Shown: positions 649 to 18,949 of the stretch, in pieces | Layout: every line of letters starts with the position of its first letter | Numbering within the stretch: the stretch's first letter is position 1 | From: Anaeromyces robustus | Lineage: Eukaryota > Neocallimastigomycota > Neocallimastigomycetes > Neocallimastigales > Neocallimastigaceae | Length of the DNA: 24,550 bases | Direction: 5' to 3' | Assembly: GCA_002104895.1 (NCBI GenBank) | Contig: MCFG01000601.1 | Location: forward strand, 1 to 24,550 | Notes under the pieces: model-generated | Told to the model about the DNA's origin: nothing | What the model saw: only the letters and a program-made list of their open reading frames with translations | Databases searched by the model: none | Made by a program: the position numbers and the translations under genes

Positions 649-880
649 TGTAATAAATTGTAAAAAATAAGTAAATTATTTTACACAATTATTTTGATAG
701 ACCCAACAGGTCTACACAGAAAGTAAATCAGAAAAGAAGATTGGTTTTATAAGAACTTGTTTTATTAGATTTATTAAAAGTAAAAATTTATTTATTTATT
801 AATTAATTTTGTAATATTCTGAATTACTTATAATTAATTAATAAAATCGCGAAGAATTAATCATTTAAAAATTTTACACC

Positions 881-888
881 TATTTATA
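881..888 (-). promoter_or_regulatory. TATA box in D 3' LTR
   Basis: TATAAATA on the minus strand, followed by GGTGTAAAAT. The same context occurs in the other D LTR and in both C LTRs. In the 3' LTR it would drive transcription out of the element rather than of the element. Confidence 0.6.
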
Positions 889-1114
889 CTTTTTACGGAA
901 AAATAGTTTTCTTCGTAAAAAGTTGTTTAAAATTTCTAGAAACTTTTGATTAAAATCTTATGGAAAAATTTAGAAAAATTTAATATAAAAGTTGTCTTAA
1001 AATTTTTGATTGTATTCTATTAATTTCTACGTAAAATACAGAAATAAAAATACAGAAATAAAATACAGAAATTCATAATAAAAATTTAAAAAATAAAATT
1101 TTTATAAAGTTTGT

Positions 1115-1186
1115 AACAAGTGTGAGTCGAACCCAGAGTGTTCGCCCAGATGGTCATAGTGACTAACCACTAGACCATGGTTACTA
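1115..1186 (-). other. tRNA-like module in D 3' LTR
   Basis: In element sense this segment has an A-box-like TCTAGTGGTTAGT and a B-box GGTTCGACTC. It is spaced like a tRNA: the inferred acceptor halves GTAACCA and TTGTTAC pair 6 of 7, and 41 bases lie between acceptor and T arm. The anticodon arm does not fold, so it is not a working tRNA. The closest resemblance by memory is tRNA-Glu, whose A box reads GGTCTAGYGGTTAG. Confidence 0.6.
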
Positions 1187-1212
1187 TTTTATTAATTGTG
1201 AGATTCGTTACA

Positions 1213-1607: not shown

Positions 1608-1634
1608 TGTAACGAATCTCTCAATTAGTAAAAT

Positions 1635-1707
1635 AGTAACCATGGTCTAGTGGTTAGTAACTATGACCATCTGGGCGAACACTCTGGGTTCGACTCACAC
1701 CTTGTTC
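1635..1707 (+). other. tRNA-like module in C 5' LTR
   Basis: This is the same module as in the D LTRs: A-box-like TCTAGTGGTTAGT (about 1646-1658) and B-box GGTTCGACTC (about 1687-1696), starting about 30 bases into the LTR. The spacing fits a tRNA body, but the anticodon stem does not form. The module is one of the best conserved parts between the C and D LTRs. Confidence 0.6.
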
Positions 1708-1961
1708 CAAATTTTATAAAAATTTTATTTTAAATTTATTTATTATAAATTTCTGTATTTTATTCTGTATTTGTTTCTGTATTTTATTTCTGTATTTCTT
1801 TATAGAATTACATGGAATAAAATTAGAAACTTTAAGAAAAAATTATATAATATTTCTTTATTTTTCTATGAGATTCATTTTATATCAAAATATCTTAGTT
1901 TCTAGTAATTTTTATTATTTTTTATGAACTTTTATTTTTAAAACTATTTTTCCGCAAAAAG

Positions 1962-1969
1962 TATAAATA
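1962..1969 (+). promoter_or_regulatory. TATA box in C 5' LTR
   Basis: TATAAATA within GTATAAATAGGTGTAAAAT, conserved in both C and both D LTRs. It is the likely Pol II promoter of the C transcript, with transcription expected to start a few tens of bases downstream. Confidence 0.65.
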
Positions 1970-3135
1970 GGTGTAAAATCTTTAGTTAAAATATTTTTCT
2001 TTGTGCTTTTATTCTTTATAACTTTATATATATTAGTAATAATTAATTCATAAGTAGTTTGAAATACTACAAAGATTAGTTATTATTAATTTTTAATAAT
2101 TAATAAAACTAAATTCTAATAAAACATATTTTAAATAAAAATAAAATAAAACTTAAAACTAAATCTTACTAATATATATATCTCGACACCGACCTTTCAG
2201 GTTAACAAAGGAAAGGTGTTCTGATATTGCAATAAGTATCTTTTATTTTAAATTTTATTTTGTTTGTGTTTACTTCAGATTTTGGTGTCAATTGTAATAT
2301 TGGAACTACCGTTCCGTTACAATAAAAGCACCCAACAAAAGAAACACCGCCTGGAACCTTAGTGTCGAAAATTTTGGAATCTGCTACCAATTTTTAGTTT
2401 CTACCTTTTATTGGATTCTACCGCCTTTTAGGTCTACCTTTGGATACTACCTCCTTTAATTTTAATCTTAGAATACTACTTTTCTTAGCTTCTGGATACT
2501 ACCTGTTCTAGTAATAATCTCCTAATCCCTTGAATACTTCTATCCTAGTTTTTGATTACCAGTTATCTACCTTGTATAATCCTTAGTTTTTAGTCTTGTC
2601 TTAGTCTTGTCTACTTCTTGTTTACCCTTTGTCTACTTTTCTTGAATAATTCTAGTATCCATCCTATCAAGTATCTTTCTCGAATAAAAATTTTTCTTGA
2701 TAAAGTAAAAAAATAAAGCACCCAGATTCCACCCGTCCTTAGTTTAACCAAGTTCTTAGAACTACCGCTTAGTTTCTCTCCTTAGTCCTAGCTACTTTAC
2801 TTTGAATTGCCTTTGAACTACTTAGAAACCTTAGTTATTGGAAATTTTGTACCACCCTAGAATAGTTAAAAAATTTTCCTTGTGTAACATTTTGAAAAAT
2901 TTTCCTTGTACTACCCAAAGATAAAAATAGTGTACCCCATAGCATTTGGAAAAGATTTTGTACTACCTTGCCAGTGATATTTTCGGAAAATTAATAAAAT
3001 TAAATTAAAAAATTAAATAAATTAAATTAAGTGAATGAATATTAATAAATTAAATAAATTAATATAAAAAAATAAGTGAATGAATAAATTATAGAATAGA
3101 TAAATTAAATGATTTTTCAAAAAAATTTTTCTAGT

Positions 3136-3170
<35 letters not shown>

Positions 3171-3183
3171 ATTTTTGTTATAT

Positions 3184-3219
<36 letters not shown>

Positions 3220-3308
3220 TATAAATTTAATAAATTTTTAATAAGGAGAATCATTCTGAGGATCCTTATTTTTATACTGTCTTTTTTCTTTTATAATTAA
3301 ATTTCGAG

Positions 3309-3397
3309 TTTCACATTGGCCCTCGCTGGTAGGCTCAGACGTAAGTCCTACATTCAGCTCGAGTAAGTTGATAAACTGAAAGAACAGCAGTGTGAAA
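3309..3397 (+). ncRNA. Stem-closed RNA domain in C leader
   Basis: TTTCACATTG (3309-3318) pairs with CAGTGTGAAA (3388-3397) over ten positions with one G-U pair, closing an 89-base domain. The surrounding 100 bases are the same in D (11649-11737) by eye. A role in RNA packaging, dimerisation or translation is possible; which one is inference. Confidence 0.5.
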
Positions 3398-3528
3398 TAG
3401 AAAAAATTATTAAAAGAAAAACATCTTTGTAAAATTCTGTGTAATTAAATACTTATTAAATTCTTAAGGTAAATTAATTATAAAATATACTAGGAGCGTT
3501 TAGAGCTCATATACAGAGTGTTTGGCGT

Positions 3529-3577
3529 AAGTAACTAGTTTCTAGTAGGTTAAGAAACTATAGTCAATTAGTTACTT
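3529..3577 (+). ncRNA. Two-part hairpin in C leader
   Basis: AAGTAACTA (3529-3537) pairs with TAGTTACTT (3569-3577), and inside it GTTTCT (3538-3543) pairs with AGAAAC (3553-3558), leaving a one-sided bulge. The same stems are present in D (about 11474-11522). Confidence 0.5.
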
Positions 3578-3924
3578 AGGTATTGATAAAAGTGGGTAGT
3601 GTGAAAAGCACGCTTTCTTGGGGGAAGGAATTGTTGTGTGATAAAAAGACTGCAATATCGGACGTTCAAGTTCAATACCTTCGTAAGCTCTGGCAAATAA
3701 GGAACTTCAGTCACCGAAGGCTGGAGGTTGGTCGTGAAGGTGAAGCGACTTTAATTATATAGTTTTAATATTTATTTCGAGGTCTAGTATATACCTCTAG
3801 TTAGTAGCTTTTGCCGGTTTATTTTTGAGTTGTAAGGCATAAAAAGCGAAATTAAAATTTAAATTTACCTTAATAAACAATTTGAATCCCTAGTCGAGAC
3901 CAATAATAAATTAATCAAATAAAA

Positions 3925-5802
3925 ATGAACGATGATAACTTTCTCAATCTAAACGTTATGTACAAAGATGGATTCGCTGGAGACCGTCGTTTCTTTAAAG
4001 GCTTTCTTGCAAAAATGAACCTTGTCTTTATGTTGCAACCAGAAAAGTTTTCTGAAGATCCAATCAAGGTTGCATACATCATTTCCAGACTTTACGGTTC
4101 TGCTATGAATTGGGCCGCAACTTTAATTGAAAATGTGGACCCATGTTTAGATGACTATGAAGCGTTTATATCCAAGTTTAAAGCTACCTTTGGAAATTAT
4201 GATTCAACCTTCATAGCAAACCAAAAGCTCAGAACCATTAAACAGAGACGTCTTGGAGATGTAAGAAGCTACATCCTGGAGTTCAATAAATACGCAGATG
4301 ACTCTTCTTGGAATGAAGCTGCTAAAATGGATGCTTTTCTCGCAGGATTAAACGACAATATTGCAACTAGAATCTTAGAAATGTTTCCTGGACCACAATC
4401 CTTATTCTCTCTTCAAACCATAGCTTCTCGTATAGATTTAAGACTTTCTACTCATAATCAATACTTTAAATCGAATAATTCAAGTAATCATTCTTTTGGT
4501 CGTCATGCTAACTCTTTTCAATTTGCTTCGAATAAATCTAATGAAACAATAACTCGTGAAGAAAAAGAAAGAAGAAGAAAAGAACATCTTTGTTTCTACT
4601 GTGGATCAAAAAATCATCAAGTTAATAATTGCCCTTTAAAGAATAAAGTGAATGAAGATGACAATAAACCCTCTTCCAGCAATGCTTTTATTTCCAATCC
4701 AGAATCCAAACCAAAACCAAGACCTAGACTTTCTGATGATCCATCTTTGAATGCTCCAGTTGCCGAATTCAATCTACAAACTTTAAACTCTTCTTGCAAT
4801 GCTAAACTACTCATCGATTCAGGTTCTCAATTAAATCTTATGGATATACACTTTGCTAAAGAAAACAATATTCCTTTTGATTCTGATTCTACTTTTCCTG
4901 CCGTTTCTGGAGTAGCCGGAAATCAAACAATTTTTGGTAAAACGTTTCCCATCTCGTTGAAATATAAAAATCACCTTTGTAAAACAGAATTCTATATTGT
5001 GGATCTACCTTCGTATTGTGGTATTCTTGGAATAGATTGGCTCGTAACTCACAATCCCACTATCAATTTTACAACTAAAGAAATAACTTTCAATTCAAAT
5101 TACTGTCTTTCAAATTGTTTAATACTCCCAAATTCATTCGTGACGAATTCTCAAAATACAAAATCTGATAAATCTTGTAAACCTCATTCTAAAAATAATA
5201 ATAATCTTGATAATCACTCTGGCAATAAATCTTTCTGTAATACTTCTTGTTTCCACTCAGAACGTACAAAATCAAGTAATTCTCAACCTTTGAAAAATAA
5301 TAATAAACCAATTCATGTTTCTAACTCTTGTGTACTTCCTAGTAAAAATTCTTGTAATCCTGTTAACCTTGGTACAAATTCTTGTAATACTGTTAATCTT
5401 AGTAATAATTCCTGTAATCCTAGTAATCAATCTTTTTCCTCTGATAATCCTAATTCTTGTTTGAAATCCTATACTCAAAATCAACCTATTCAAAATATTA
5501 ATCTTTCAAAACCCAATAATCCAATCTTTTCGAAGGAGAGTGTGAATGATAAAAATAAATCAAATTCAAATTTTTATTCAAAATCAAATAAATATTCTAC
5601 ATGTCAAAATTTTTTCTTAGCAAATTCAAAAGAAATTATTAACAACTCTTCATACTTTGTAATCTGTAATTCAAAATCAATTAAATACAAAAGAAAACAA
5701 AACAACAAATTTAAAGAATTTAAAGTTGATGCATACCTCCCTTATGAAGATAAACCACCTGAAAATTTACTTTGTTACTTTGTTAAAAATAAATCAAAAT
5801 GA
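3925..5802 (+). CDS. Element C: Gag-protease protein with novel low-complexity tail, 625 aa
   Basis: Residues 1-175 are a Ty3/gypsy Gag (capsid), very close to the Gag of D; about six in seven of the first 150 residues match by eye. A CCHC zinc knuckle, CFYCGSKNHQVNNC, lies at 223-236 (nucleic-acid binding). An aspartic protease follows at about 277-390 with LLIDSGS (active-site Asp 298) and the GILGIDWL block. After about residue 407, where D continues into RT, C has some 218 residues rich in Asn, Ser, Lys and Cys, with a repeated NSCNPVNL-type unit at about 471-500. I do not recognise this tail. The protein ends at TGA 5800-5802 with no pol gene after it. The start is the first ATG after the conserved leader and matches D's start. 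It looks whole. Confidence 0.9.
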   Translation: MNDDNFLNLNVMYKDGFAGDRRFFKGFLAKMNLVFMLQPEKFSEDPIKVAYIISRLYGSAMNWAATLIENVDPCLDDYEAFISKFKATFGNYDSTFIANQKLRTIKQRRLGDVRSYILEFNKYADDSSWNEAAKMDAFLAGLNDNIATRILEMFPGPQSLFSLQTIASRIDLRLSTHNQYFKSNNSSNHSFGRHANSFQFASNKSNETITREEKERRRKEHLCFYCGSKNHQVNNCPLKNKVNEDDNKPSSSNAFISNPESKPKPRPRLSDDPSLNAPVAEFNLQTLNSSCNAKLLIDSGSQLNLMDIHFAKENNIPFDSDSTFPAVSGVAGNQTIFGKTFPISLKYKNHLCKTEFYIVDLPSYCGILGIDWLVTHNPTINFTTKEITFNSNYCLSNCLILPNSFVTNSQNTKSDKSCKPHSKNNNNLDNHSGNKSFCNTSCFHSERTKSSNSQPLKNNNKPIHVSNSCVLPSKNSCNPVNLGTNSCNTVNLSNNSCNPSNQSFSSDNPNSCLKSYTQNQPIQNINLSKPNNPIFSKESVNDKNKSNSNFYSKSNKYSTCQNFFLANSKEIINNSSYFVICNSKSIKYKRKQNNKFKEFKVDAYLPYEDKPPENLLCYFVKNKSK

Positions 5803-6132: not shown

Positions 6133-6846
6133 TGTAACGAATCTCTCAATTAGTAAAATAGTAACCATGGTCTAGTGGTTAGTAACTATGACCATCTGGG
6201 CGAACACTCTGGGTTCGACTCACACCTTGTTCCAAATTTTATAAAAATTTTATTTTAAATTTATTTATTATAAATTTCTGTATTTTATTCTGTATTTGTT
6301 TCTGTATTTTATTTCTGTATTTCTTTATAGAATTACATGGAATAAAATTAGAAACTTTAAGAAAAAATTATATAATATTTCTTTATTTTTCTATGAGATT
6401 CATTTTATATCAAAATATCTTAGTTTCTAGTAATTTTTATTATTTTTTATGAACTTTTATTTTTAAAACTATTTTTCCGCAAAAAGTATAAATAGGTGTA
6501 AAATCTTTAGTTAAAATATTTTTCTTTGTGCTTTTATTCTTTATAACTTTATATATATTAGTAATAATTAATTCATAAGTAGTTTGAAATACTACAAAGA
6601 TTAGTTATTATTAATTTTTAATAATTAATAAAACTAAATTCTAATAAAACATATTTTAAATAAAAATAAAATAAAACTTAAAACTAAATCTTACTAATAT
6701 ATATATCTCGACACCGACCTTTCAGGTTAACAAAGGAAAGGTGTTCTGATATTGCAATAAGTATCTTTTATTTTAAATTTTATTTTGTTTGTGTTTACTT
6801 CAGATTTTGGTGTCAATTGTAATATTGGAACTACCGTTCCGTTACA
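6133..6846 (+). repeat. Element C: 3' LTR (714 bp)
   Basis: Same length and same sequence by eye as 1608-2321, from TGTAACGAATCTC to CCGTTACA, followed by the GTTTT target duplication (6847-6851). It contains a second tRNA-like module (about 6160-6232) and TATAAATA (6487-6494). Its final bases lie at the end of D's open frame. Confidence 0.92.
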
Positions 6847-9800
6847 GTTTTATTGAAATTTTTAAGTAATTCTGGACAATTCAAATTTGTTTCTGGCTCC
6901 CAAGAAGCTTCTGATAAAGGATAACCTTTCCATTTTATTAAGTATTGTATTTTTCCGTAATGCTTTCTTTTGTCCAGAATTTCTTCGACTTCATATTCCT
7001 CTTCTTCATTCACAATTATTGGTGGTGGGGGTGCTTGCTTCCTTTTGAATTTGTCTTCGAAGTAAGGTTCAAGTTCAGATACATGAATAATTGGATGAAT
7101 TCTAAGGGTTTTTGGTAGTTCAATTTTATAAGAAACTGGGGATACTTTTTCAATAATCCTAAACGGTCCCAATTTTCTTGGTTTAAGCTTTTTATTTTTG
7201 TTTCGAATTATTAATGAACTATTAATCCAAACTTTGTCATTAATTTTATATTCTGGAGCCTTTATACGATGTTTATTCGCAAAAATTTCTTGTTTTTTAA
7301 CTGCTTGTTTTAGATTTTCTTTTAATTTCTTGAATAATTCAGACAAATCTTTTGTAAATTGGTCTGCACGCGGAACATCTGAAGTACTGGGGATTGCTGG
7401 AGAAAATCTTGGGTTATATCCATAATTGGCATAGAATGGGGATTCTTTTAAGGATTCTTGTATTGTGTTGTTATAACAAAATTCTGCGAGATATAAATAG
7501 TTACTCCAATCGGTTCCTTTGAAATTTGAATAGCATCTAAGGTACTGTTCGATAACGGAGTTCACCCTCTCCGTTAGGCCATTAGTCTGGTGGTGAAATG
7601 GTGAAGAGAGTTTCATCGAAATGTTAAGGGAGTTGCAAACTGAAGTCCAAAATTTTGAAGTAAACTGGGCACCTCTGTCAGAAAGGATATCAATTGGAAG
7701 ACCATGAAGTCGAAAAACAGTGTTCATAAAAGCATTTGCAGTGTCTTCAGCGGAGGGAACATTGGGAAAGGGAATAAAGTGACCCATTTTTGAAAATCTA
7801 TCCAAAATAACAAAAATGCAAGTGAAGTTGTTTGAAGAAGGAAGGTCAGTAATGAAGTCCATTGAGAGGGAAGTCCAAGGGCGATCAGGAATTTCGAGAG
7901 GGTTTAAAAATCCGTAAGGTTTATGTCTAAGATCTTTAGCTCGGCAACAAACTTCGCAGGAGCGTACGTATTCTTTTATATCAGTGTTCATGGAAGGCCA
8001 CCAGAAATCACGATTGGTTAAAGAGAGAGTTTTCTTGATGCCAAAGTGTCCAGCAGAGGGAGAATCGTGGCAAATATTAAGAACAAGGGAACGGCAACTA
8101 GTTGGCACGTATATTTTACCTTTGAATAGTAAAAAGTTATTTATTAACGAGAAGTCATTTTGTCCAGAAGAATTATTTGAGATAAGTTTATTATAGGTTT
8201 CTTGATAAAATTTATCTTTGGAGTATTCTTTGATAATTTTTTCGTTCAAGGATGAAACTATGGAAGCTACTGCACAAAAGTTTTCGGGTCTAAGTACCGA
8301 AAAAGGAGTGTCAATGGAAGAAAGTTCTTCATCGTTGGTAGCATAATCAGGTCTACGAGAAAGTGCATCAGCTTTGCCATTAGCGGAACCAGCACGATAA
8401 ACAATTTTGAAGTTAAATTCAGAGAGAAATAAAGCCCAACGTACTAATCTTTGTGACATCTTTTCGGGTTTCTTTTGATATAAAAGATTACGGTGGTCAG
8501 AAAAAATGGTAAATGGGATCGATGTGCCTTTTAATAAGTGTCTCCAATGTTCCAGAGATTCAACAATAGCTAGAAGTTCTTTGTCGTATATCGGGTAGTT
8601 CTTTTCTGCAGAGGTAAGAGATCTAGAAAAGAAAGCAACTGGATGAATTTTGTTATCCTTTAAAGAGTTTTGCGAGAGAATAGCCCCGATGGCAAAATTG
8701 CTGCTATCAGTTTCCACTAAGAAGGGTAGATCACGATTAGGATAAGCAAGAACTGGAGCAGAAGAGAACTTGTACTTTATTTCTTCAAAGGCATCTTGAG
8801 TTTTCGAGGTCCAACTGAATTTTATATGTTTCTTTAATAGAGAATTAAGAGGATGAGTGATTGCTGCAAATCCAGGAATAAAGCGTCGGTAGTAGTTTGC
8901 CAAACCCAAGAATGATTGTAATTGTTTAACGTTTGCAGGGATAGGCCATTCTAAAATCGAGGAAACCTTTTTTGGGTCCATGAGAATACCATCAGAAGAT
9001 ATTCTGTGACCAAGAAAATCCAAGAAGGGAACACAAAATTCGCATTTTTCAAGTTTTGCGAATAGATGGGCTTTTCTTAATCTGTTAAGTACTTCAGATA
9101 AATGAACAAAGTGAGTGTCTAAGTCAGGAGAGAAGATTATTATGTCATCAATATAACAGAAGGCGAATTTACCCAAGACATCTTCTAAAATGTCATTTAT
9201 AAAGTGTTGAAAAACGGCAGGAGCATTCTTGAGACCGAAAGGCATTACTAGATATTCAAAGTGTCCGTATTTACAAGTAAATGCCGTCTTGAATTCGTCA
9301 CCTTCTTTGATCCTAACTAGGTTGTATGCCGAACGAAGATCTAATTTTGAGAAGACTCTTCCTTTGGATAAATGTTCTAACATGTCGTTAATCAAAGGTA
9401 AAGGATAAGAGTCACGGATCGTAATATCGTTCAAATGTCGGTAGTCTACTACCATTCTTAGTTCACCATTCTTTTTTAACACAAAAAATACAGGAGCGCC
9501 AGCGGGGGATTTAGATTTTCGGATAAATCCTTTTGCTAAGTTTTCCTCGATGTATTCCTTAAGTGTGGCCGATTCCTTTTCTGTTAAAGGGTAGATTGGC
9601 CCATAATATAGCTGAGTGCCAGGAAGAAGGTTTATCTCACAATCGTAGGGTCTATGAGGAGGTAGCTCGTTGGCATATATTTCACTGAATACATCTTTAA
9701 AAGGCCGAAGTTTAGCAGGTAATAAAGTTTGTATTTTGGATTCATTTTCCTTTTTTGTTTCCTTTGGAGGAATGAAGGCAGCAAAAGAACTGGGGAGCAT

Positions 9801-11003
9801 TAGGCAATTTGAAACGCAATGATTTGATTTGAATGAAAGTTCTTTGGTTCCAAAATTAATAGTAGGATTATGTATTGAAAGCCAGTCAGTTCCTAATATG
9901 GCGCAATAGGAGGGTAAGTCAAGAACGTAAAATTTCACTTTGCAATTATGATTTTTATAAGTCATTGAAATGGGAAAGGTTTCACCAAGTATAGTTTGAT
10001 TTCCTCCAATTCCAGATATCTTGGGAAGATCTGTTTTAGTCGAGAAGGGTATATTATGTTGTTTAGCATAATATACATCCATAAGGCTAAGTTGAGAGCC
10101 GGAATCTAAAAGAATTTTTGTGTTGATGGAGGTATTTGAGACTTTGAGAATGAATTCGAAAATTGGTAACTTTAAGTCTGGTTGATCAGAAATTCTTGGC
10201 CTTGAACTAAAGTTTGCTTCGGGATTGGTGATATGGGAGGTAGTAGAAGCTTTATTCTTTTTTCTAAGTGGACATTTTTCCCACGAATGTTCAGAGGAAG
10301 CACAGTATGGGCAAAGATTTTCTCTTCTTCTTCTTTCCTTTTCTTCGTTCGATAATGGTCCGCGAGGTTTTTGATTTTGTGTTTTCTTGGAAAAACTTGA
10401 TTTTCTATTGTTGTTGTTTTTGTTGTGATTATTATTGTTATTTGATTTATTTTGTGAGGTGAAAAATTGTCTCTGGGTTGAAATTCTGGAGTCAATTCTA
10501 GAAGCAATGGTTTGCATGGAGAGAAGTGTTCTAGGTCCTGGGAACATCTCAAGGATTCTGGTTGCAATTTGATCATTTAATCCAGCGAGAAAGGCATCCA
10601 TTTTTGCCTCTTCATTCCACGAAGATTCGTCAGAATACTTATTAAATTCTATAATATAATTTCGGACATCCCCAAGACGTTTTTGCCTTATGGTTCTTAA
10701 TTTTTGGTTGGCGATAAATGTTGAATCGTAATCGCCAAAAGTAGCCTTGAATCTTGAAATAAAGGCTTCGTAATCGTTTAAACATGGGTCCACATTTTCT
10801 ATTAAGGTTGCGGCCCAGTTCATAGCAGAACCATATAATCTGGAGATAATGTATGCGACTTTAATGGGATCTTCGGCGAATCTTTCGGGTTGCAACATAA
10901 ATATGAGATTCATCTTGGCGAGGAATCCTTTGAAGTAGCGGCGGTCTCCAGCAAAACCATCTTTGTTGTTGACACTAGCATTAAAAAATGAATCTTCTTC
11001 CAT
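6831..11003 (-). CDS. Element D: Gag-Pol polyprotein with chromodomain, 1390 aa
   Basis: One uninterrupted frame encodes a whole Ty3/gypsy polyprotein. Order by residue: Gag 1-180; Asn-rich linker; zinc knuckle CPYCASSEHSWEKC at 231-244; protease with LLDSGS about 298-303; RT about 480-665 with [14 protein letters not shown] and YIDD (617-620); RNase H about 760-880 with VETDSS, the KELLAIVE Glu and FSDHRN; integrase with an HHCC finger (about 979-1020) and D-D-E residues near 1049, 1109 and 1145; a GPF motif near 1278; and a C-terminal chromodomain about 1336-1386 (YEVEEILDKR, IKWKGY, SWEP). Chromodomains steer integration towards marked chromatin. Gag and Pol are fused without a frame change, unlike element B. 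C lies at the extreme 3' end, past the chromodomain, and its LTR supplies the last few codons. RT, RNase H and integrase motifs all look present. Confidence 0.93.
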   Translation of the reverse strand: MEEDSFFNASVNNKDGFAGDRRYFKGFLAKMNLIFMLQPERFAEDPIKVAYIISRLYGSAMNWAATLIENVDPCLNDYEAFISRFKATFGDYDSTFIANQKLRTIRQKRLGDVRNYIIEFNKYSDESSWNEEAKMDAFLAGLNDQIATRILEMFPGPRTLLSMQTIASRIDSRISTQRQFFTSQNKSNNNNNHNKNNNNRKSSFSKKTQNQKPRGPLSNEEKERRRRENLCPYCASSEHSWEKCPLRKKNKASTTSHITNPEANFSSRPRISDQPDLKLPIFEFILKVSNTSINTKILLDSGSQLSLMDVYYAKQHNIPFSTKTDLPKISGIGGNQTILGETFPISMTYKNHNCKVKFYVLDLPSYCAILGTDWLSIHNPTINFGTKELSFKSNHCVSNCLMLPSSFAAFIPPKETKKENESKIQTLLPAKLRPFKDVFSEIYANELPPHRPYDCEINLLPGTQLYYGPIYPLTEKESATLKEYIEENLAKGFIRKSKSPAGAPVFFVLKKNGELRMVVDYRHLNDITIRDSYPLPLINDMLEHLSKGRVFSKLDLRSAYNLVRIKEGDEFKTAFTCKYGHFEYLVMPFGLKNAPAVFQHFINDILEDVLGKFAFCYIDDIIIFSPDLDTHFVHLSEVLNRLRKAHLFAKLEKCEFCVPFLDFLGHRISSDGILMDPKKVSSILEWPIPANVKQLQSFLGLANYYRRFIPGFAAITHPLNSLLKKHIKFSWTSKTQDAFEEIKYKFSSAPVLAYPNRDLPFLVETDSSNFAIGAILSQNSLKDNKIHPVAFFSRSLTSAEKNYPIYDKELLAIVESLEHWRHLLKGTSIPFTIFSDHRNLLYQKKPEKMSQRLVRWALFLSEFNFKIVYRAGSANGKADALSRRPDYATNDEELSSIDTPFSVLRPENFCAVASIVSSLNEKIIKEYSKDKFYQETYNKLISNNSSGQNDFSLINNFLLFKGKIYVPTSCRSLVLNICHDSPSAGHFGIKKTLSLTNRDFWWPSMNTDIKEYVRSCEVCCRAKDLRHKPYGFLNPLEIPDRPWTSLSMDFITDLPSSNNFTCIFVILDRFSKMGHFIPFPNVPSAEDTANAFMNTVFRLHGLPIDILSDRGAQFTSKFWTSVCNSLNISMKLSSPFHHQTNGLTERVNSVIEQYLRCYSNFKGTDWSNYLYLAEFCYNNTIQESLKESPFYANYGYNPRFSPAIPSTSDVPRADQFTKDLSELFKKLKENLKQAVKKQEIFANKHRIKAPEYKINDKVWINSSLIIRNKNKKLKPRKLGPFRIIEKVSPVSYKIELPKTLRIHPIIHVSELEPYFEDKFKRKQAPPPPIIVNEEEEYEVEEILDKRKHYGKIQYLIKWKGYPLSEASWEPETNLNCPELLKNFNKTVTER
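6847..6851. repeat. Target site duplication of element C (right copy)
   Basis: GTTTT, matching 1603-1607 at the other end of C. Confidence 0.85.
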
Positions 11004-11648
11004 CTTCTAATTTTCGTTCTTATTGTTAAAGTTGTTTATTGTTCTAAGTGCTTTGAGTAAAATTGCCACAGTGAGTAGTTCTATTTCTAAGATTATTAAT
11101 TTTATGATTACGAGTAGAATGTTGAAGTTCATAAGACAGAATAAAATTTAAATTTTTGGAAATTTTAAGTAGGACAAATTTATTTAAGGTAATTTGGAAT
11201 TTCGCTTTTATGCCTTACAACAAAAAAATAACCGGCAAAAGCTACTAACTAGAGGTATATACTAGACCTCGAAGTAAAATATTAAAACTATATAATTAAA
11301 GTCGCTTCACCTTCACGACCAACCTCCAGCCTTCGGTGACTGAAGTTCCTTGTTTGCCAGAGCTTACGAAGGTATTGAACTTGAACGTCCGATATTGCAG
11401 TGCTTTTTATCACACAACAATTCCTTCCCCCAAGAAAGCGTGCTTCTCACACTACCCACTTTTATCAATACCTAAGTAACTAATTGACTATAGTTTCTTA
11501 ACCTACTAGAAACTAGTTACTTACGCCAAACACTCTGTATATGAGCTCTAAACGCTCCTAGTATATTAAAAAAAAAAATTACCTTAAAATTTAAACAACA
11601 GAAAAAGTTTTATGGACTTATTTAACCTTTTAGTAATTTTTTTTTCTA

Positions 11649-11737
11649 TTTCACACTGCTGTTCTTTCAGTTTATCAACTTACTCGAGCTGAATGTAGGA
11701 CTTACGTCTGAGCCTACCAGCGAGGGCCAATGTGAAA
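11649..11737 (-). ncRNA. Stem-closed RNA domain in D leader
   Basis: This is the counterpart of C 3309-3397. TTTCACATTG (minus strand, from 11737) pairs with CAGTGTGAAA (to 11649). The domain and its flanks look the same as in C over about 100 bases. Confidence 0.5.
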
Positions 11738-12011
11738 CTCGAAAAATTAATTAGAAAAAGGAAGAATATTTTATAAGGATCCTCTATAACGATTCTCCTT
11801 ATGACAAAATTAAAAAAAAAAAAAAAAAAACACAAAAATTTTATTACAACACGTTATTTTCTTACCACTATTTCAGGTAAGTAATTTATTATAAATAAAA
11901 AATAATTAATTTTTTTTTTTTTTTTTTTTTTTTCCGTAGGGTAGTCTATTGTACGTAGGGTAGTCTTTTACTATTTTTAAGGCAGTTCAGTAGTGGTTTA
12001 GGAGTAAAAAA

Positions 12012-12055
<44 letters not shown>

Positions 12056-12359
12056 ACAGTATTTTCCGTAGGGTAGTTTTCAACAATATTATATTCCGTA
12101 GGGTAGTCTAACACTATATTTAAAATAGTTCAGGTGTAATTTAAAGGTAATTTATGATTTCGATTAGGGACAATATTTTCCGTAGGGTAGTCTTCGATAA
12201 TATAATTTATTCCGTAGGGTAGTCTTGTGCTAAGTAAGAAATTACGGAGGTTATAAAAAGAATTATTACAGAGGGTAGTTTGTAGTGGTCCGGAAGATAG
12301 TCTAAAAAGAAATTACGGAGGGTAGTCTAAATGATTTACGTAGGATGGCTAGAAATAAT

Positions 12360-12510
12360 CCGGAGGGTAGTCTAAAGAAATTTATAAAGGATAGTTTATA
12401 ATTGTCCGGAGGGTAGTCTAAAGAAATTTATAAAGGATAGTTTATAATTGTCCGGAGGGTAGTCTAAAGAAATTTATAAAGGATAGTTTATAATTGTCCG
12501 GAGGGTAGTC
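12360..12510. repeat. 46-bp tandem repeat in D leader
   Basis: Three full head-to-tail copies of a 46-bp unit (plus strand CCGGAGGGTAGTCTAAAG through TTTATAATTGT) start at 12360, 12406 and 12452. A partial copy starts at 12498. Each unit carries one GGGTAGTC motif and one weaker GGATAGTT motif, so the array is a local expansion of the leader's motif series. Confidence 0.85.
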
Positions 12511-12908
12511 CCAAATATAAGTAGAGTAGTCTAAGATTTAATGTAGGATAGTCTAAGATAGTCCGTAGGGTGGTCCCAGAAAGTAGGGTAGTTTCTATGT
12601 ATTCCGGAGGGTAGTTTGGAAAATTTTTTCTGTGTAAAGGTATTGGGTTTGATTACTAACTTTAGGGCGATTTTATTGTAATAAATTGTAAAAAATAAGT
12701 AAATTATTTTACACAATTATTTTGATAGACCCAACAGGTCTACACAGAAAGTAAATCAGAAAAGAAGATTGGTTTTATAAGAACTTGTTTTATTAGATTT
12801 ATTAAAAGTAAAAATTTATTTATTTATTAATTAATTTTGTAATATTCTGAATTACTTATAATTAATTAATAAAATCGCGAAGAATTAATCATTTAAAAAT
12901 TTTACACC

Positions 12909-12916
12909 TATTTATA
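12909..12916 (-). promoter_or_regulatory. TATA box of the D promoter
   Basis: TATAAATA on the minus strand in the 5' LTR, about 230 bases before the LTR end. It would drive the genomic RNA of D. The context AAAAAGTATAAATAGGTG is shared with C. Confidence 0.65.
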
Positions 12917-13142
12917 CTTTTTACGGAAAAATAGTTTTCTTCGTAAAAAGTTGTTTAAAATTTCTAGAAACTTTTGATTAAAATCTTATGGAAAAATTTA
13001 GAAAAATTTAATATAAAAGTTGTCTTAAAATTTTTGATTGTATTCTATTAATTTCTACGTAAAATACAGAAATAAAAATACAGAAATAAAATACAGAAAT
13101 TCATAATAAAAATTTAAAAAATAAAATTTTTATAAAGTTTGT

Positions 13143-13214
13143 AACAAGTGTGAGTCGAACCCAGAGTGTTCGCCCAGATGGTCATAGTGACTAACCACTA
13201 GACCATGGTTACTA
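13143..13214 (-). other. tRNA-like module in D 5' LTR
   Basis: Same sequence as the module in D's 3' LTR. The A-box-like and B-box motifs are in the element's sense orientation, so a Pol III transcript from here would run into the element. Confidence 0.6.
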
Positions 13215-13240
13215 TTTTATTAATTGTGAGATTCGTTACA

Positions 13241-15794: not shown

Positions 15795-15843
15795 GTTATG
15801 GATCAAAATATAACTATTTATTAGTTATATTTTGATCCATAAC
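15795..15843. repeat. 21-bp perfect inverted repeat in B LTR
   Basis: GTTATGGATCAAAATATAACT (written here as its two halves, GTTATGGATC and AAAATATAACT) at 15795-15815 pairs with 15823-15843, leaving a 7-base loop ATTTATT. It is perfect over 21 pairs. It directly follows the tRNA-like module in element sense. Confidence 0.8.
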
Positions 15844-15844
15844 T

Positions 15845-15928
15845 GAGGGTGATACCCGGAGTCGAACTCATGACAGGTAGGTCAGAGTCCAACAACCTGA
15901 CGACTACGTCAGTCGGGGAACCCCCGGT
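15845..15928 (-). other. tRNA-like module in B LTR
   Basis: Minus strand: GACGTAGTCGTCAGG (A-box-like), then TTGGACTCTGACC resembling a tRNA-Gln(CUG) anticodon arm, then a perfect B-box GAGTTCGACTC. The anticodon stem pairs about 4 of 5, but the base before the anticodon is not T in the best fold. It is probably a tRNA-derived segment, not a working tRNA. It differs in sequence from the C/D module. Confidence 0.5.
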
Positions 15929-15930
15929 AG

Positions 15931-18900
15931 GAATAACTCTTTCAATGTATTTAGCTAATAGTAATACATTGTTACAGTCAGAATTAAGGGTAGGTGAATA
16001 GGTTAGGTCAAAGTCGATTCCGAATTCTTGTGTAAATCCCCTAGCAACGAGTCTAGCCTTGAACTTAACGATTTGGTTATTTTCATCTCTTTTAATGGAA
16101 AATACCCATTTTGTTGAAATAATTTTCCTTCCCTTTGGAATTTTTCTGACAAAAGTCACTACATTGTTGTTGTATAAATTATCTAATTCGTCTGATATGG
16201 ATTTGATCCATTTTTCGCTATTTTCGCTGTTAATAGCCTGTTTAAAGCTGAATGGGATATCAGATGAGATTGAGTTAATATAGTGAAAAGAAGAATTTTG
16301 AATAATTGAATAAATTTTATTATTATCAGTTTGATTATCTAAATTATTATCTTTATTTGGGATTTCTTTGTTGTTTGTTTGATTTCTTGGTTCAGTGTTG
16401 ATTGGATTTGAATCGAAACAGTTATTTTTAATTATATTTGAATCAATATTGTGATGGTCATTTTCGTATTTAAATGAGTATTCTCCGGGAGTATTTTCAA
16501 GAAATTTTGCCTCTCTAACTAGGTGAAGATTTTGGTTATTGATATCCATAATAATATAGCAATCTGTATTGAATTGAATACCCAAGAAAATCCCTTCTGC
16601 AGAATTGATATCGAATTTTGATTTTTTATTTTGGATGTTATTATAAAATGATTTACAACCGAAAACTTTGATTTTAGATAGATCGACTTTTTTGTTATAA
16701 AATATCTCGTTCGGAATTAGGTTTGATATGCTACTTCTGGGAGTAATATTGTATAGATGGTTGGCATAGATAATAGCGAAAGACCAGAAGTCTAAACTGA
16801 GTTTTGCCCAATATAACAGTGTCTTGACGGAGTTGACTATTGTCTGGTTGAATCTTTCGGCTATCCCATTATTTTCTGGATTGTAGGGTGGAGAGAATAT
16901 TTTCTTGATCCCATTTCTCCTACAATACTTCTTGATTTTTGAGTTGTTGAACTCTCTACCATTGTCGCTTTTGAAAAATTTCACTTTATTGTTGTAGTGG
17001 TTATCTAAGTACTTGAGAAAATATAAAATAGTATTAGTGGCTTCTGATTTTTCCTTTAATAAAAAGACCCATGATTTTCTGCTAAACTCATCAATAAATG
17101 TAATGATATATTTCATTCCATCTATTGAGGCTGGTTTAATTGGTCCCATGATATCTGAGTGAATGGTTTCTAGGACTCTAGATGCCTTCGGGGTGGTTTT
17201 GTTATGTGGATGTCTCTTCATTTTGGAAATATCACATTCCTTGCAATTTGTTTCTTTATCTTCATGTAATTCTAGGTAATTATTGATATCCTTAAAATAG
17301 AAATGTCCTAATCGGTTGTGCCAGATCTTTAGGTTGTCACCGGTCTCTGTAGAATTAATGTTGGAGTTTGAACTAGTGAGTTTTATTCTGGCTATATTGT
17401 AATTGTCTGGTACAATTTGGGCAATGATGGTGTTATTTTCATTGGTTAAATTTAGGTAAGTCTTATTGTTGACACTTTTAATATTTGAAAATATGCCCAT
17501 TTTTGCCAGTTTAATACCGCTGATTAAGTTTTTATTAATGTCCTTTGAGTAGAGGACTTTATCCAGGACTATCTCGTAACCGTTAATTTTCCCACGAAAT
17601 GTACCATAACCTTCAAAGACGCAGGTAGAATTGTTGGCACAACTCATAGTGATTTTTTTTTCCTTAAAATTTTCTAAAAGGCCCCTCTCGTTGGTGATAT
17701 GTTCACTTGCACCAGTATCGAAGGTCCAGGTTGACTCATTTTGGTCACGTGATATTTTAGAAAATAAATTTGACAAAACTTCTTCGTTTTGATCGGGAGA
17801 CACGTTTTCTACTGGTTTGGAACCATCTTCAAAATTCACGTGATAATTTTTTGATTGGTTATCGTTAATGTCTACAGTACATAAATCTATGTTGTGTTCA
17901 TCTTCTTTATTTTGGTCATGTGATCCATACTCAATATTTCCAATGGGTTCTCCAAACATTTCTTTTATTTCTTCATAACAAGGCGTGAATTCTCTTCTGT
18001 TGCTTGGTTCAATGTTGTATGTTCCACGTTTGTAGTGGTTTGTTTCCTTCTTATTGTCGTTTTTATGTTTCTTGTAGTGGTTGCTAAATTTTGAACGGTG
18101 ATTAGGTCTGTTGGTTCCGCGTGGATTAAAGTAACAATCCTTTGCAATATGGCCTTTATTAAAACAGATAATGCAGTATTTGTCGTTTTTATTTAAATTC
18201 CTATCATTTGTTTGTTTTTTGTTTTTACCGGTTTCCACGTTGTCTATGTCCATTGGGTCATAGCAATCCTTGAAATCCGGAGTGTTTGTATTTTGGCTAT
18301 AATTTGAAGAGGAAGGTCTTCTGCTTCGGATTTGGTTAGTTCCTCTGTCAAACTTGTACATATAAATCATGTATTTATTTTTAATTTCTTTATAAAAATC
18401 TTCCACAGTTAATTCTGAGCTGAAATTAACCCTTTGTTGTAATGATGCTGGTAAAGCATCATACATGATACTTAATTTCTCCATATCGGAAGGGTTCATC
18501 AAGGAATTGCTCAGAAGTCGAAAAAGTTCTTTGATTTCATTGATCACATCCATTGTTTCTTGGATGTGTTTTGCGCGGATGCTATATAATCTGTTCATCC
18601 ACATACCATGAAAGGCAGATTCGTCTCTTTGGTAAAGAGCCTTAAGTTTATCCATTTTACTTTTAGCACATGGGCAGTCTTTAATGTACATCTTTACCAT
18701 GTCAGAGACATTTGAGAATATGACAGTACATGCGGCGGCGTCGTTTGCGATAGTATCTTGGTTTCTTGCAACTTCTTCCTTGGTTAGTTTACTACCCCTT
18801 TCCGGAGTGATCATTAGCTCATTTAATTCATATTTAATATACTTATGAAGTTTTTTGGACTTAAGATAGTCTTCAATAGTAGCAAACCATATTGGAAAGT

Positions 18901-18949
18901 TGGTGGCTCCTTGTAACTTTTCTTTTTCAGAAAGACGAAATTCGAACAT
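15931..18949 (-). pseudogene. Element E: copia Gag, protease, integrase and start of RT
   Basis: One long minus-strand frame starts at ATG 18949. Domains by residue: copia-type Gag 1-235; zinc knuckle CIICFNKGHIAKDC 259-272; protease WTFDTGASEH (Asp 411); integrase HHCC finger with H545, H549, C569 and C572; catalytic D599 (HSDIMGP), D662 (KSDNGREF) and E698 (NNGIAERF), the last two 35 residues apart as expected; a VFGC block near 763; an Asn-rich linker 840-890; and the RT opening (WVFSIKRD, KARLVARGF, TYSPTLNSD) near 948-992. Past about residue 1003 the frame runs into B's LTR and is no longer copia. The RT core is absent from the window. The element is broken. Confidence 0.85.

Follow-up and report, generated by a model that had tools for sequence, protein, structure and literature searches.

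A conserved, covarying leader RNA shared by pol-bearing and pol-less families of Ty3-type retrotransposons in Anaeromyces robustus

The leaders of C and D, two nested Ty3-type LTR retrotransposons of Anaeromyces robustus, carry two blocks of RNA that are under strong purifying selection and nearly identical between the elements, whose gag genes are saturated at synonymous sites. As shown by comparison of aligned leaders, the helices of the larger block are maintained by compensatory change. Both elements lie in the window, by which the whole analysed stretch of 24,550 nt (contig MCFG01000601.1, assembly GCA_002104895.1) is meant. The leader RNA may be a genome-recognition tag by which element RNA is picked for copying, a reading to which an even chance is given here. 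The result is a covariation-supported RNA family with about 100 element copies in a single genome and with natural swaps of leader type; because these swaps join pol-bearing and pol-less partners, helper parasitism could be tested with isolated RNA modules.

Results

Nested elements and related families

The features of C and D are listed in Table 1. C is nested in D, and D in turn interrupts an older Ty3-type element, whose ORF, with its end at 13198, extends into the D LTR. The D ORF has the composition of a Ty3 chromovirus (RT, RNase H, integrase and a C-terminal chromodomain); its protease match falls narrowly short of the Pfam cut-off. In C, nothing beyond gag and a protease-like match is present. 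Complementarity of 11 nt to the primer-binding site, as in Tf1-like self-priming, was found in both elements checked. It was equalled by 36/5000 shuffled sites for C and by 1/5000 shuffles for D, where its letters differ from those of C. The segment in C likely marks the 5' end of the RNA, as placed from the TATA box; that of D likewise lies about 40 nt past TATA.

Relatives were searched for in the genome (70.2 Mb in 769 contigs); families are designated by letters and individual loci by L numbers. The genome has at least 150 domains of the CBM_10/dockerin type, compared with 0/14 control genomes, as befits an anaerobic gut fungus. Intact pol-bearing rows of 1385-1433 aa were obtained for families D (4/8), H (3/5), F (3/3) and Ga (2/3). 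Gag-region frames reached at most 692 aa in the C-type rows (39 in number) and 675 aa in the 8 Gb-type rows (at 71%). Family H is represented by L064 (L079 is alike), and the leader type of Gb was taken from its two copies L065 and L080. No relatives were found in plasmid records or viral contigs.

Table 1. Coordinates of the features of C and D in the window.
Feature	Positions	Strand	Remarks
3' LTR of D	649..1212	-	outer ends matched, 300 nt identical; C insertion parts LTR from D body
5' LTR of C (non-autonomous)	1608..2321	+	714/714 identical to 6133-6846; TSD GTTTT on both sides
11 nt complementary to C primer-binding site (2321-2331)	2003..2013	+	about 40 nt past TATA box
Hairpin 0 of C leader (AATAAGGA...TCCTTATT)	3240..3270	+	common to D and H; pairing judged by eye
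Block 1 of C	3304..3402	+	identical in D
Block 1 RNA fold	3304..3402	+	outer helix 3310-3318/3388-3396, inner stem-loop, GAUA hairpin
Block 2 RNA domain, about 415 nt	3459..3878	+	closed by helix P1, 3464-3475 with 3862-3873
Core hairpin a of block 2, 8 bp, loop ACCGAA	3705..3726	+	
C gag ORF with protease-like match (below cut-off), without pol	3925..5802	+	
3' LTR of C	6133..6846	+	inside 3' end of D pol ORF
D gag-pol ORF	6831..11003	-	RT, RNase H, integrase, chromodomain (Pfam); last codons enter C LTR
41-codon upstream ORF of D, hydrophobic peptide	11007..11132	-	stop ends 3 nt before gag AUG
Block 2 of D	11179..11592	-	
Block 1 of D	11644..11742	-	
Hairpin -1 of D, CTTACC-TGAAATAGT-GGTAAG	11861..11881	-	kept in F and K by compensatory changes
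5' LTR of D	12677..13240	-	12878-12868 complementary to D's own primer-binding site

Leaders compared with gag

The original prediction, that the leaders of C and D are far more alike than their gag genes and match over about 100 bases without a difference, was borne out when leader and synonymous divergence were compared. Block 1 is identical over 99 nt (C 3304-3402, D 11742-11644 on the minus strand). In block 2 (C 3487-3840), C and D differ at 6/353 aligned sites and in 3 gap columns, as against 38/66 fourfold sites in gag (282 codons), where pS is 0.77 and thus saturated. The values for C and H are 7/351 in block 2 and 38/63 at fourfold sites, and those for D and H 5/352 and 46/63. The stretches that had been singled out as conserved are so but had been drawn too small: hairpin 0, the whole of block 1 and the P1-closed block 2 are conserved as well.

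Between and around these islands the sequence has changed. The spacer between the blocks (84-93 nt) and the stretch after block 2 are diverged among C, D and H; upstream of hairpin 0, C and D are diverged, with C and H more alike. In alignments scored against the best of 200 shuffles, the spacers reached 25.0 vs 24.5 for C-D, 39.0 vs 24.0 for C-H and 33.0 vs 17.5 for D-H. The upstream stretch that holds hairpin 0 also aligned above 200 shuffles among the three families; for the stretch after block 2, C did not exceed shuffles with D or H, and D aligned with H.

Genome-wide, 106 sites matched block 1 and 101 matched the block-2 core at up to 3 mismatches; reversed patterns gave 0. Among the block-2 sites listed, 92/100 were followed by a gag match on the same strand that started no more than 1,500 nt downstream. 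Ga and Gb each have two copies of block 1; none was found in the F leader, where a 14-bp hairpin is read in its place. Neither block was found in L067-L071, families whose gag shares about 60% identity with that of D. The block-2 core is kept in the leaders of K and M. Downstream ORFs of M encode an RT domain (RVT_1, E 1.1e-38). For the ORF in its gag position, the sole domain match was to PNMA, below threshold (E 0.002), and tblastn at E 10 linked it to neither D nor C gag. A single gag-like match (30-32%) lies near a K fragment (L101), on the opposite strand. A further conserved leader stretch, block 3, occurs in K (L091:790-1010) and upstream of gag in L067, L068 and L070. In L066, an apparent solo LTR with GTATT repeats on either side lies inside the second copy of block 1.

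Selection within family C

Polymorphism was counted in 36 of 42 distinct C leaders, 6 with a broken or poorly aligned gag being omitted. Nucleotide diversity was 0.0023 in block 1 and 0.0048 in block 2, compared with 0.065 at fourfold sites of gag and 0.042-0.073 in neighbouring non-coding stretches (spacer 0.043, post-block stretch 0.073). Shared polymorphisms occupied 6/471 block sites and 20/106 fourfold sites (Fisher p 3.5e-11); neighbouring sites, with 30/210, showed no difference from fourfold sites (p 0.33). Selection therefore acts on the blocks. Across all 42 leaders, diversity was 0.0029 and 0.0058 in the two blocks. As most copies were picked by block similarity (the best 40 of 107 and of 110 block-search candidates, plus L081), these values are biased towards identity. 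Four of the 39 C-type rows selected by gag were in neither block list; L081, L082 and L083 have both blocks at about 99%, and the fourth begins at a contig end.

Folding and covariation

Polymorphism within C and covariation across families, the latter weaker for block 1, lend strong support to the proposal that the RNA is constrained and folded. Hairpin a reads CUUCAGUC-ACCGAA-GGCUGGAG in C and CUUGGUAU-ACCGAA-AUACCAAG in K. In 10 rows, 95% of cells were paired and 7/8 pairs had changed on both sides, values reached in 0/500 shuffles each. The covariation score was 0.606, compared with 0.208 +/- 0.055 for shuffled alignments (0/500) and at most 0.15 for slid versions of the hairpin; the observed number of pair types was reached in 38/500 shuffles. 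Shuffle tests were applied to hairpin a and block 1 only; for P1, P2, hairpin b and hairpin -1, the arms were chosen visually, after which their positions were checked. P1 forms 12/12 pairs in C, D, H, F and Ga and 11/12 in M, where the letters are largely different; P2 forms 6/6 pairs in all 8 rows, and hairpin b 5/5 in six rows and 4/5 in three. A pairing of a block 2 loop with the 5' strand (CTAGTATAT/ATATACTAG), drawn by eye, is invariant in C, D, F and Ga, has one change in H and is unsupported in K and M.

Of the two stems proposed for a covariation test, that at 3309-3397 proved to covary in its outer helix; that at 3529-3577, which folds in C but not in this form in F and lies in a region partly gapped in Ga and Gb, is a candidate only. 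For block 1 as a whole (11 distinct rows), 96.2% of cells were paired and covariation was 0.206 vs 0.145 in shuffles (0/500), while the 3 doubly changed pairs were not above shuffles (228/500), nor were the pair types (433/500). The compensatory substitutions expected of a structured cis-acting RNA are thus found in block 2 and less clearly in block 1. A GAC-GUAA-GUC hairpin considered in block 1 was rejected, as by eye it is not retained in the G2 copy. Single sequences folded only slightly more stably than shuffles (z -2.25 and -1.6), with -90 kcal/mol for 3486-3860 (z -1.6). When the window and seven relatives were searched against Rfam at loose thresholds, no family reached its gathering score; the best sub-threshold match in the relatives was U6atac in L063 (22.8 of 33 bits, E 0.038). 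The hairpin -1 form CTTRCC-TGAAATANT-GGYAAG (or CTTGCT..AGCAAG), with compensated arms, was also seen in D, F, Ga and K leaders (L063, L099, L105).

Upstream AUGs and translation

In D, the 1,543 nt of leader that run from near the LTR end to the first coding AUG contain 0 AUG, against an expectation of 11.0. The C leader has 3 vs 8.7 expected in 2332-3239 and 0 vs 8.3 in 3240-3924; over the final 840-890 nt ahead of the first coding AUG, the counts are 0 vs 9.2 in H, 2 vs 11.5 in F and 2 vs 8.0 in Ga. The triplets CAT, GTA, TAG and TGA are not clearly reduced there, the lowest being CAT in Ga (6 vs 9.5, P 0.08). Within the LTR segment of the RNA, AUG counts are 0 vs 4.0 in C and 0 vs 2.4 in D, where CAT is low as well (0 vs 2.5, P 0.04). 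From these counts, ribosomes seem to scan the D leader.

The leader might instead control translation, as an IRES or as a shunt or landing structure by which ribosomes reach the first ORF. The fold lies upstream of the first coding AUG, C is free of other AUGs from 3240 to that of gag, and a long folded leader would hinder plain scanning, so that a shunt is possible. However, the upstream AUGs that an IRES-bearing leader would tolerate are depleted, even in rapidly evolving sequence 5' of the fold, a depletion that an IRES would not require. Both internal ribosome entry and removal of the leader as an intron are therefore rejected as unlikely, which disfavours the translation-entry signal that had been one of the functions originally proposed. 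No Rfam IRES was found at threshold, the sole match (L064:1355-1484; score 16, cut-off 100, E 0.97) lying in gag. Control of translation is thus considered unlikely, and AUG depletion makes genome recognition likelier than internal ribosome entry.

Exchange of leaders

Recent exchange, the other cause envisaged at the outset, is evident between Ga and Gb and probably contributes among C, D and H, but does not alone explain their islands. The leaders of Ga (L076) and Gb (L080) agree at 779/780 sites from -990 to -210, spacers included, and then break off; block 2 has 0/314 differences at a gag dS of 0.369. Gb (L080, L107) appears as a mosaic: leader and 5' gag are of Ga type (93% over 713 nt) and are set on a C-type pol-less 3' part, to which similarity is 87% over 600 nt and then 73% over 1,475. 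To judge from Gb, leader types can be swapped by recombination.

Could C, D and H owe their common leader mostly to template switching, with constraint in a minor role? The block rate within C is about 0.08 of the fourfold rate, and the blocks of C, D and H are more alike than this ratio predicts at saturated synonymous distance, which suggests exchange or homogenisation in addition to constraint. Constraint alone is also insufficient because block-2 divergence from D amounts to 20% in F and 29% in Ga at a gag dN no larger than that of C-D; between D and L061 (dS 0.085), 5/354 block-2 sites already differ. Further points in favour of recombination are the spacers, which align better than shuffles (C-D only just), and the upstream sequence common to C and H but not to C and D. 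The islands, on the other hand, are parted by diverged spacers, unlike the Ga/Gb leaders, and this makes a single recent exchange between C and D unlikely; a sharp breakpoint as sole cause, which would have undone the prediction, leaves them unexplained. Constraint is seen within family C alone and in covariation, and the gag tree (a near-polytomy, with Gb cut to 235 aa) does not reject C, D and H as one clade (p-AU 0.294). Recombination as the main cause is accordingly held to be quite improbable, and the similarity among C, D and H probably reflects constraint plus exchange or homogenisation.

Discussion

A role of the leader in nuclear export, RNA stability or evasion of silencing instead of packaging, which a long, apparently unspliced genomic RNA with a large conserved fold would fit equally well, is judged very improbable, as nothing points specifically to any of these. 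Under genome recognition, the leader would carry a modular folded RNA composed of hairpins, block 1 and the closed block 2 of about 415 nt, and this RNA would act in cis as a signal for packaging, dimerisation or replication of the genomic RNA. C and Gb would have to keep a leader recognised by a family that has pol, D/H in the case of C and Ga in that of Gb, while gag, the LTR body and the spacers drift. Both pol-less families do bear the leader type of a pol-bearing one, C that of D/H and Gb that of Ga, and so resemble BARE2 in lacking replication genes while sharing the leader of an autonomous family. We infer that the shared leader would be the cis signal of the non-autonomous partners; a cis-acting tag that helpers read would be expected to leave just such a shared leader type. 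Since C and Gb retain a gag of their own, recognition by a helper is putative. The helper-type leader of both pol-less families would fit the original suggestion that C RNA enters D-type particles.

An upstream ORF of 35-42 codons for a hydrophobic peptide lies between block 2 and gag in D, H, F, Ga and L066 (L063, L064, L066, L076, L077; for example, MNFNILLVIIKLIILEIELLTVAILLKALRTINNFNNKNEN) and is absent from C (window copy and L081) and Gb (L065, L080). In L068 and L070, gag is joined in frame to a hydrophobic stretch. pS exceeded pN in 7/7 comparisons of the micro-ORF (0.40-0.72 vs 0.11-0.25), which are short and non-independent, and the peptide had no Pfam match at E 0.05. Its presence in pol-bearing families and absence from C and Gb suggests a trans-acting function supplied by helpers.

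By extension, modular RNA genome tags might set compatibility groups of pol-bearing and pol-less families, each with an AUG-free, scanned leader and with a trans-acting hydrophobic micro-ORF confined to helpers; this broader proposal is tentative and, in our view, rather doubtful. Its interchangeable folded modules would be a block 1 that is single, doubled or absent and a block 2 of several types, a scheme put forward with the same reserve.

In barley, the Copia element BARE2 is packaged in BARE1 particles without Gag expression of its own, which has been called consistent with conserved dimerisation and packaging signals (PMC3735527). As far as that account of packaging goes, C and Gb are alike in being defective families that share a leader type with a partner, and unlike BARE2 in being Ty3-type, in lacking pol and keeping their own gag, in their diverged LTR bodies and in their large covarying fold.

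The structured leader upstream of gag also resembles the Psi and dimer signals that retroviruses carry in this position on genomic RNA; no Rfam relation of the C/D leader was found. Tf1/sushi chromoviruses are characterised by a chromodomain integrase, an 11-nt self-complementarity between RNA 5' end and primer-binding site and a 5-bp target duplication. D shares the first, C and D the second, and a 5-bp target duplication is likewise seen here; we know of no such leader RNA in Tf1. LARD, TRIM and Cassandra elements are non-autonomous LTR elements maintained in trans without gag, unlike C and Gb, which keep it. In the literature on LTR-retrotransposon leaders, gut-fungus retrotransposons and hydrophobic uORFs, covered through titles and the beginnings of abstracts and thinly for subscription journals, neither the RNA nor the peptide is described.

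Additional observations

The LTR starts of C and D (1608-1757; 13240-13090, minus strand) are about 96% identical (141/147 aligned), the remaining LTR being diverged. Their first 150 nt include a tRNA-like stretch with pol III motifs of A-box-like (TGGTCTAGTGG) and B-box-like (GGTTCGACTC) form; no tRNA was called there by ARAGORN. Upstream in the D leader, 46-nt tandem repeats at 12334-12510 belong to a longer run of ACTACCCTNCGGA-like motifs. A Copia-type gag-integrase ORF (15821-18949, minus strand) adjoins the nested Ty3 elements.
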